Source: Devosia aurantiaca (GTDB lineage: Bacteria; Pseudomonadota; Alphaproteobacteria; Rhizobiales; Devosiaceae). Taken from it: a DNA stretch of 64,000 bases. Below the pieces are notes generated by a model. The model was not told the DNA's origin and searched no databases. It worked only from the letters and a program-made list of their open reading frames with translations. Shown here piece by piece: positions 57,526 to 59,646 of the stretch; the first letter of the stretch is position 1, and the number at the start of each line of letters is the position of its first letter. The stretch lies in the NCBI RefSeq assembly GCF_011058215.1, contig NZ_JAALFG010000003.1:248001-312000 (forward strand). Reading direction: 5' to 3'. A program made the position numbers and the translations under genes.

Positions 57526-58469
57526 TCAGCGCGCGTAGAAGCCTTCGACCCGCGCCACTTCGTCTGCTGAGCCAAGGATCACCGGAACGCGCTGGTGGAT
57601 GCCGGTGGGTTCAACGTCGAGGATCGACTGGGTTCCGGTGGTCGAGCGTCCGCCGGCGCCCTCGACGAGCCAAGCCATTGATTCGCTTCGTAGAGGAGGC
57701 GCAGGCGGCCGCCTTTGCTCTGCGTTTCGCTGTCGAGCGGATAAAGGAAGATGCCCCCGCGCATCAGGATGCGGTGGATGTCGGCGACCATGGAGCCGAC
57801 CCAGCGCATGTTATAGCGCTTGCCGGCAGGCCCGGTTTCTCCGGCGACGCTTTCGCTGACATAGGCGCTGGTGGCTGCGTCCCAGAAGCGTTCACGCGCC
57901 GTGTTGATGGCAAATTCACCCGACGCGGCGGGAATGGCGGCCGTGTTGACGGTCAGCTGCCACTGACCCTGCTCATCAAGGGTGAAAACGCTGGTTCTTC
58001 CGGCGATGCGCAAGGTCAGGCTCGTGGCTGGCCCATAGGCGACATAGCCGGCGGCGATCTGTCCCGTGCCTTTTTGCAGCAGCCCGCCCGCGGCCGGAAG
58101 CACGGAGAAAATGGTGCCCACGGTGACGTTGACGTCAAGGTTCGAGGAGCCATCCAGCGGGTCGGTGGCGACGATGAAGCGGCCTTCGCTTGCCAGATCA
58201 ACCGCTTCATCCAGCTCTTCCGAAATCAGAATCGAAATGGCGGGATTTGCTGCTAAGTGCTTGATAACAATGTCGTTGGAGATGACATCGAGCGCCTTCT
58301 GCGCCTCTCCCTGGACGTTGGTCGCGCCGGCTAGACCCGTATGCCCGCTGATCGGCGCCTGCCGGAGCTCCGCAGCGATGTCGACACACGCTGCCGCCAT
58401 GGAGGCTATAGTGCTGGCAAGCGCGGCATCATCGGTCTCGGTGCTCAGCCAGTCGGGCAGGGTGGTCAT
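57526..58469 (-). CDS. fbp: Fructose-1,6-bisphosphatase class I, frameshifted
   Basis: Hydrolyses fructose-1,6-bisphosphate, needed for gluconeogenesis. [20 protein letters not shown] near residue 90 is the metal-binding FBPase signature, with SEELDEAVD before it and [18 protein letters not shown], the substrate-binding end, later. The frame breaks near 57678: one added base turns [11 protein letters not shown] into [20 protein letters not shown], and the protein then ends EGFYAR. Repaired length is about 314 residues. The ATG at 58469 has AAGGAG upstream; a longer frame begins at 58541. Confidence 0.93.
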
Positions 58470-58614
58470 CGGCAGCTCCTTGTTAAGGGCTTTGTGTGGA
58501 ATGGCGGCTGCCGAGGCAAGGCCGACTTTCGGGTGAGCCACAACACGAGCAGGCAGCTTCTTTCACAAGCGACCATCGCCGCAGCAAAGCGTTTCTCTCG
58601 GCGGCGCTGCCACA

Positions 58615-58638
58615 GGAGTTTACAGCTTGTTAAACTCC
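58615..58638. promoter_or_regulatory. Perfect 8-bp inverted repeat in the fbp / small ORF intergenic region
   Basis: GGAGTTTA-cagcttgt-TAAACTCC lies between divergent fbp and the 28-codon ORF, 43 bp before the latter. It may be an operator or RNA hairpin. It lacks a T run. The rest of 58470-58680 shows nothing else I can name. Confidence 0.45.
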
Positions 58639-58680
58639 AGCCAGCTGGTAGTCTTTGATGGACATCGTTGCGGATCCATC

Positions 58681-58767
58681 ATGCCCAAGCTTTACCTGCA
58701 ATACGTTTCCTACGCCGCTCTGTTTGCGGCGCTCGTGCTGGGTTTTGCGGTCACCACTTTCGGCTAG
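58681..58767 (+). CDS. 28-residue single-helix membrane protein
   Basis: MPKLYLQYVSYAALFAALVL continues with GFAVTTFG and stops at TAG. About 20 residues form one hydrophobic helix, which is unusual for random sequence. Its stop shares CTAG (58764-58767) with the convergent DUF6894 gene, exactly as at four other convergent junctions here, which supports it being a gene. The ribosome-binding site is weak. No family is known to me. Confidence 0.45.
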   Translation: MPKLYLQYVSYAALFAALVLGFAVTTFG

Positions 58768-59042
58768 TGCAGCCGCGCCGGTTCGATCGGCGTTGCCGGG
58801 CCCGAGCCGATTTGTGGGCCTGCCCAAAACACCACATATAGCAGCTCCTGGCCGCCTTCGTCGGTGATCTCGATGGAGCGCGCTTCTTCCACTTCGGCGC
58901 CCTCTGCCGCGGCGCGTTCGATGATCGCCTTGCCGATTTCGGCAGCGTTATGCTCGGCGGCATCGAGGTCTGGGAATTCGGTACCCGTGCGGTCGGGAAT
59001 CAGTCGGTCATCGGTGCGATAATGGAAATAGTAGCGCGGCAT
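58764..59042 (-). CDS. DUF6894 small protein
   Basis: A 92-residue protein starting MPRYYFHYRTDDRLIPDRTG and continuing with FPDLDAAEHNAAEIGKAI, the opening signature of DUF6894. ITDEGGQELLYVVF follows. The family is widespread and often multicopy in Hyphomicrobiales and has no known function. It sits alone between the small membrane ORF and the flavin reductase gene. Confidence 0.85.
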   Translation of the reverse strand: MPRYYFHYRTDDRLIPDRTGTEFPDLDAAEHNAAEIGKAIIERAAAEGAEVEEARSIEITDEGGQELLYVVFWAGPQIGSGPATPIEPARLH

Positions 59043-59095
59043 GGCATTCCCCGTTCCGGCGGAACAACGATGCTTTTGCCGATCGGTTGCCCGGC

Positions 59096-59646
59096 CTAGC
59101 CGATTGGACCGACGCTGCCATAGTCACGCTGATGCCAGATCAGCGGCGTGCGCGCCGTGTCGGTCTCGGCTTCGATGATGGCCCCAGCGTAGAGCACATG
59201 CGTGCCGGTTTCCATAGCGCCGATCACTTCGCAATCGAGCGACGACACCGCGCCTTGGAGTTGCGGCTGTCCCGACGGCCAATGGCTCCATTCCCCGAGC
59301 GAAAAGCGGTCCGTCGTATCGAGCTTGCCGGCGAATGAATCGGCGATCTCGGCCTGCCGGTCGGACAGGAGGGCAACGGAGAAACAGCCGGTGCGGGCGA
59401 TGATGTCGGCCAACCGGCTGACGATATCGATGGAAACGAGGATCGTCGGCGGCTGGTTGGAGAGCGACATCACCGATGTGGCTGTGCGCCCAACCCGCTC
59501 GTCCCCCGCCGGGCAGTGACGACATGAACACTCGACGCCACAGCGGCCATGGCCGTCCGAAACTCGCTGTCGCTGATGGCGGGGCGGCGCAGAGGCCGCA
59601 AAGCCATGCTGTCGGGAAGCTCGAAATCGGGTGTGATGGCATTCAT
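59096..59646 (-). CDS. Flavin reductase-like FMN-binding split-barrel protein, frameshifted
   Basis: A 183-residue (repaired) protein of the flavin reductase family, which reduces free FMN or FAD with NAD(P)H for a partner oxygenase. FRTAMAAVASSVHVVTARRG starts the fold, and TATSVMSLSNQPPTILVSID is the flavin-binding core; GCFSVALLSDRQ and GAVSSLDCEV follow. The frame breaks in the C run at 59503-59507: one more base gives ARRGDERVGRTATSV. The ATG is at 59646. No oxygenase gene is near; the divergent neighbour is a truncated globin. Confidence 0.88.

Follow-up and report, generated by a model that had tools for sequence, protein, structure and literature searches.

Why should a gap between two genes of the reverse strand hold, on the forward strand, an open reading frame of only 28 residues? 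The frame lies in a 64,000-nucleotide stretch of the Devosia aurantiaca genome (hereafter the window; the genome is G000 among our labels) and runs from an ATG at 58681 to a TAG at 58767 (MPKLYLQYVSYAALFAALVLGFAVTTFG). On one side of the gap stands a class-1 fructose-1,6-bisphosphatase (FBPase) gene (57579-58469, reverse strand, in an ORF that extends up to 58541 and whose start is probably the ATG at 58469), on the other a gene for a DUF6894 protein (58764-59042, reverse strand; Pfam PF21834 at 7.5e-16), the usual neighbour of this slot. In most relatives it is NAD-glutamate dehydrogenase (GDH), not FBPase, that borders the slot; GDH has no match at E<=1e-30 in G000 and its sister G072, as in 7 of the 75 Devosia genomes overall. 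The first-pass annotation had suggested that the frame is a real single-helix microprotein, with an 8-bp inverted repeat upstream and a CTAG stop shared with the DUF6894 gene, and the frame, the repeat and the shared stop are all present. The encoded helix is single and hydrophobic (about residues 9-25) and by Kyte-Doolittle hydropathy long enough to span a membrane, its best 17-residue mean being 2.08 in the window and 1.86-2.46 across 30 copies. We propose, with a probability of about 0.6, that the frame is the gene for a small single-pass inner-membrane protein of the sulfate regulon, born from an eroded sbp gene.

A protein of 28 residues is one that gene finders would miss, and the one here has the look of a real gene conserved in Devosia. 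With a profile built from 14 copies, the stand-alone ORF is found in 32 of 75 Devosia genomes (one genome per species) at E<=1.7e-11, and a DNA search of 61 genomes detected, in nine congeners, a conserved block that spans the ORF and the region before it. When this profile was run at E<=0.001 on 61 genomes from the other genera of the family, it gave three matches, all in frames of at least 349 codons. The selection tests used the 30 copies for which the profile search gave a locus, leaving out G064 and G068. Over 373 of the 435 pairs, the others being saturated or too close, the median dN/dS is 0.21; pN/pS is 0.35 in frame and rises to 1.57 and 1.61 in the two alternative forward frames. The reverse frames score 1.63, 0.48 and 1.90, the low value among them being as expected where third positions are shared. 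By codon position, the Fitch changes number 63, 54 and 198, a distribution matched in extremity by none of 20000 shuffles, and between G000 and G072 the microprotein codons differ at four synonymous and no nonsynonymous sites. The reading frame is thus under purifying selection, more than chance would produce. The first-pass annotation had staked its case on conservation of start and helix in relatives, and both are conserved; the gene-like behaviour that it suspected is borne out at the codon level.

Most copies are slightly longer than the one in the window: 28 of 30 have 31-32 residues, often with a tail of the HAGxxF type, and the tail ends in F in 20 of the 28 tailed copies, while Sbp is without such a tail. 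The copies of G000 and G072 have no tail and one extra residue near the N-terminus, and the G000 lineage, having lost the tail, may be on a different path from the others. The shared CTAG (58764-58767), which stops the microprotein ORF on the forward strand and the ORF 58764-59042 on the reverse strand, is confined to these two genomes among the 30 aligned copies. The first-pass annotation proposed a search upstream of DUF6894 genes in other genomes; DUF6894 is convergent, and the ORF does not lie transcriptionally upstream of it. In G016 (L067, 5361-6136), two ORFs that by eye resemble a split transposase lie between DUF6894 and an intact microprotein gene.

Database searches identify no domain in the product. 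Pfam returned no family for the window microprotein or for one 31-residue orthologue, NCBIfam none for the former and one match below cut-off (0.27) for the latter, and the mature periplasmic binding domain (PF13531 / TIGR00971) is absent by both. A weak Shine-Dalgarno-like stretch, GCGGA (58670-58674, forward strand), lies 6 nt before the ATG and might serve as a ribosome-binding site, judging by its sequence. No intrinsic terminator was found in 58440-59060; of the 30 copies, 7 have terminator-like hairpins in the roughly 110 nt that follow the ORF, against 1.8 expected by shuffling, and a downstream terminator is not a general feature of the copies.

The upstream region is more telling. The inverted repeat (58615-58638) consists of two 8-bp arms, GGAGTTTA (58615-58622) and TAAACTCC (58631-58638), 100% complementary and separated by an 8-nt spacer. 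Its pairing is perfect only in G000, falls to 6 of 8 in G072 and ranges from 2 to 7 of 8 over the 29 other copies, which rules it out as a regulatory element: the first-pass annotation was right about its existence, not about its standing as an element of its own. What is conserved at this place is GTTTAC followed by CTTGTTAA, the start of a promoter-like block. The repeat overlaps GTTTAC and the -35-like part of that block, an incidental overlap not beyond chance. The core of the block, CTTGTTAAACTCCAGCCAGCTGGTAGTCTTT (58626-58656, forward strand), ends 24 nt before the ATG and comprises a -35-like CTTGTT (58626-58631), a 17-nt spacer and a -10-like TAGTCT (58649-58654). A strict sigma-70 consensus scan of the region found no promoter, and the -35 and -10 labels are assignments that we infer. 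Placed 30 nt before the core is a conserved element, GCAAAGCGTTTC (58584-58595, forward strand), possibly an activator site, and GTTTAC (58618-58623, forward strand) is kept directly before the core in microprotein copies and is absent from the sbp and cysT consensus.

In its general form the block consists of the core CTTGnnAnnCnCnACnnnnnnGnTAGnnTTT and, some 30 nt before it, a second element of the form GCAAAnnnTTTtC. Even when 3 mismatches are tolerated, the genome of the window contains a single instance of the microprotein version. Scanning 12 chosen genomes for the general block with at most one mismatch gave 24 matches, versus 2 for the reversed control, and 20 of the 24 precede sbp (8), the microprotein (5), cysT (4), cysA (1, in one genome), an orphan signal-peptide ORF (1) or an Rrf2 gene (1), the remaining 4 lying inside or before other or unclear genes. 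Eleven of these loci were read directly and the rest placed by coordinates. The names cysT, cysW and cysA are those we presume from position and Pfam class, the C-terminal domain of CysA scoring below cut-off. The microprotein of G001 escaped the scan, as did the stand-alone ORFs of G019, G026, G065 and G070, all of which have blocks that fit more poorly. Scored on upstream regions, with identical sbp or cysT motifs counted once, at least 13 of 15 block positions are present in 29 of 30 microprotein copies (11 in the other); at least 11 of 15 are reached in 31 of 33 regions upstream of sbp and in 9 of 13 upstream of cysT, and the regions that fall short have 8-10. The block therefore goes with sulfate-uptake genes (sbp, cysT and, in one genome, cysA). 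If the sulfate-uptake regulon is defined, as here, by the two-part promoter block of sbp and cysT, the microprotein gene belongs to it, and the microprotein is probably made when the sulfate-uptake genes are on; to call this a sulfate regulon would be to name it after its target genes.

The link to sbp extends into the coding sequence. When the microprotein profile (14 sequences) was compared with the first 60 residues of Sbp (8 chosen sequences), hhalign gave 97.5% over 27 columns, and in the genome of the window the profile ranks the Sbp signal peptide (0.0012) directly behind the ORF itself, the next match standing at 0.38. The microprotein helix seems to be homologous to the Sbp signal peptide, even if Ala/Leu-rich helices can align by composition. 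This relation and that to the sulfate-uptake promoter had been overlooked by the first-pass annotation. With Sbp (NCBIfam NF008022 / TIGR00971; PF13531) the microprotein shares the helix sequence, the promoter block and, across clades, the slot; it differs in having no mature solute-binding domain, with a stop after the helix or after a short tail, and in the window copy the A-x-A motif is missing as well. We also considered whether the Sbp signal peptide is itself unusually conserved, and rejected this: its mean pairwise identity is 0.66 in SbpA versus 0.65 in the paralogue SbpB, with 0.81 for the mature part of either (9 of the 10 genomes intended, G016 being left out).

The distribution of the two genes over the slot is orderly. 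In 28 Devosia genomes sbp sits at the slot next to GDH (the G095 copy runs off its contig). Of the 32 microprotein genomes, 29 have the ORF between DUF6894 and either GDH (27) or FBPase (G000 and G072); in G081 and G086 a contig end interrupts the locus and leaves one flank visible, the ORF of G064 is elsewhere, beside fbp, and the slots of G004 and G020 were assigned by coordinates. G002, G025 and G092 hold both genes, the microprotein first and then a roughly 64% identical sbp with a promoter block of its own. In a tree of concatenated GDH, DUF6894 and globin (70 of 75 genomes with at least one of these genes; row labels were added by us), all 30 rows of one clade (SH-aLRT 88) carry the microprotein, and its sister clade, likewise large (99), has 33 rows, 28 with sbp, three with orphan signal peptides and two with empty slots, neither block nor ORF match being present at the slot of G067 and G089. 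The same tree places G000 and G072 beside G019, G026, G065 and G070, which we dismiss as an artefact: G000 and G072 are without GDH and the other four contribute GDH only to the concatenation, and Sbp identity to G000 (92% in G068, 89% in G001) points to the microprotein clade.

Apart from the microprotein, stand-alone signal-peptide ORFs are present in eight genomes of Devosia and in one genus besides. Those of G027 and G097 stop directly after an A-x-A-like motif, and in G007 the signal peptide is followed by an unrelated tail, the block being visible upstream in all three. Five more, of 43-48 residues, reside at another locus with the block (scores of 13, 13, 14 and 13 in G019, G026, G022 and G065; visible in G070, its parts there standing one base further apart than in the pattern). 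In these, substitutions fall differently on helix and tail. Between G019 and G026 the helix part shows 9 synonymous and 4 nonsynonymous differences in 31 codons and the tail 0 and 13, and between G065 and G070 the counts are 9 and 2 in 28 codons and 3 and 14; the contrast is less clean between G022 and G070 (11 and 9 in the helix part, 2 and 14 in the tail). A 46-residue signal-peptide-like ORF without an A-x-A motif follows a 13/15 block in a different genus of the family (G127, L228). In G117 (L229), also outside Devosia, a 66-residue ORF reads into eroded Sbp sequence behind a 13/15 block, an intermediate that supports loss of the sbp body as the direction of change. A candidate ORF in G154 is without the block (7/15).

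As to who might control the block, an Rrf2-like gene adjoins the stand-alone ORF at the three loci examined (G019, G026 and G070; identified by Pfam at one). The Rrf2-family gene beside stand-alone signal-peptide ORFs (L083, 4792-5220; L179) is a candidate regulator, as is another Rrf2-like gene, in G065, that has the promoter block upstream; a LysR-type activator was also considered.

On the reading that we prefer, the sbp body at the slot would have been lost, or the 5' end of sbp duplicated, with promoter and signal peptide staying behind, and this remainder would have been kept as the microprotein. It is possible that the product inserts N-in/C-out, like a signal peptide, and that at least in the G000 lineage, where the A-x-A site has been lost, it stays uncut in the membrane. 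Perhaps its action there, when sulfate is limiting, is to bind a membrane partner, which would not have to be the CysTWA permease. One may object that what stays behind after loss of the sbp body is simply a functionless relic in slow decay. Erosion intermediates do exist, among them the 66-residue ORF of G117, the unrelated tail of G007 and the empty slots of G067 and G089. Moreover, 10 of 75 Devosia genomes have neither an Sbp (E<=1e-20) nor a CysW (E<=1e-40) match, CysW being sought among the best 32 first-look candidates scored per genome, and 9 of the 10 carry a stand-alone signal-peptide ORF: the microprotein in G005, G020 and G035, another such ORF in G019, G022, G026, G027, G070 and G097, and neither in G061. 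This last figure cuts both ways, since it fits plain erosion as well. A dN/dS of 0.21, the excess of third-position changes, the presence of the gene in 30 of 30 rows of its clade and a terminal F foreign to Sbp all speak against decay, and we regard a relic as unlikely for the gene as a whole, possible as it is for some lineages.

Another way to account for tailed copies would be a precursor from which signal peptidase I, cutting after an A-x-A-like triple, frees a short secreted peptide such as GPLFF. A lenient triple of this kind is present in 26 of 30 copies, or 26 of the 28 tailed ones, in addition to the frequent final F. However, the window copy and that of G072 have neither site nor tail, and in the G019/G026 pair it is the helix that is conserved and not the tail; this reading strikes us as rather improbable, cleavage staying open for the relatives and not for the copy in the window. 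A dedicated accessory subunit or regulator of the CysTWA sulfate permease would be a special case of the reading that we prefer. It would suit a promoter block common to the microprotein and the sulfate-uptake genes, and small membrane proteins that bind transporters, KdpF and AcrZ, are known. But the three genomes that keep the microprotein without an Sbp or CysW match make a role solely as a CysTWA subunit unlikely, and six others (G002, G009, G011, G025, G091 and G092) have only a 51-53% identical CysW paralogue, so that we rate this narrower version as quite improbable. Least probable of all would be a small membrane toxin of the TimP or type I kind, repressed by an antisense RNA. In size and shape TimP offers a parallel, but the microprotein has the promoter block found at uptake genes and is retained in synteny, and no Rfam match lies in 58400-59100 (a DNA alignment of 13 of the 30 copies was made for the RNA-family question).

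The preferred reading, of a membrane protein derived from a signal peptide, has partial precedents. KdpF, AcrZ and MgtS, small bacterial proteins that cross the membrane once, modulate transporters, and by description the microprotein is like them in size and in its one helix, its presumed origin from a signal peptide being the difference. Neither this gene nor a stand-alone Sbp signal peptide is described in the titles and abstracts found with the limited terms and literature searched. According to one report, TimP of Salmonella is a 38-residue, largely N-terminal signal-sequence protein of the inner membrane that is apparently not cut and is toxic when overproduced (PMC7667032), indicating that this membrane can house a signal-sequence protein that apparently stays uncut. 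The microprotein is likewise short and largely a signal sequence, a likeness of size and shape, and its promoter block, in contrast, ties it to sulfate-uptake genes.

It is tempting to go further and suppose that the Sbp signal peptide has several times become an independent gene in Devosiaceae, driven by the sulfate-uptake promoter (counting the microprotein clade, the ORFs of G027 and G097, the five ORFs elsewhere and the 46-residue ORF of the other genus), with the helix itself having a membrane job when sulfate is limiting, perhaps also once cleaved from Sbp. Recurrent retention of the signal peptide, including in nine of the ten Sbp- and CysW-less Devosia, would mean that the helix has such a job, and we hold this wider idea only tentatively. 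If the preferred reading is true, a discarded targeting sequence seems to have become its own gene, and new small membrane proteins could arise where the gene of a secreted protein erodes until promoter and signal peptide are left, a route along which intermediates are still visible. It would then be a testable claim that a signal-peptide helix can be retained in its own right.

Sulfate uptake in genomes with a reduced CysTWA set may follow another course. Among 26 chosen genomes, G005 and G035 encode a long SulP-type transporter and G020 only a 236-codon frame. The eight genomes with no A-type CysW and a long SulP transporter (G002, G005, G009, G011, G025, G035, G091 and G092) may have replaced CysTWA by it, and a long SulP transporter is also present in some CysTWA genomes (G010, G016 and G033).
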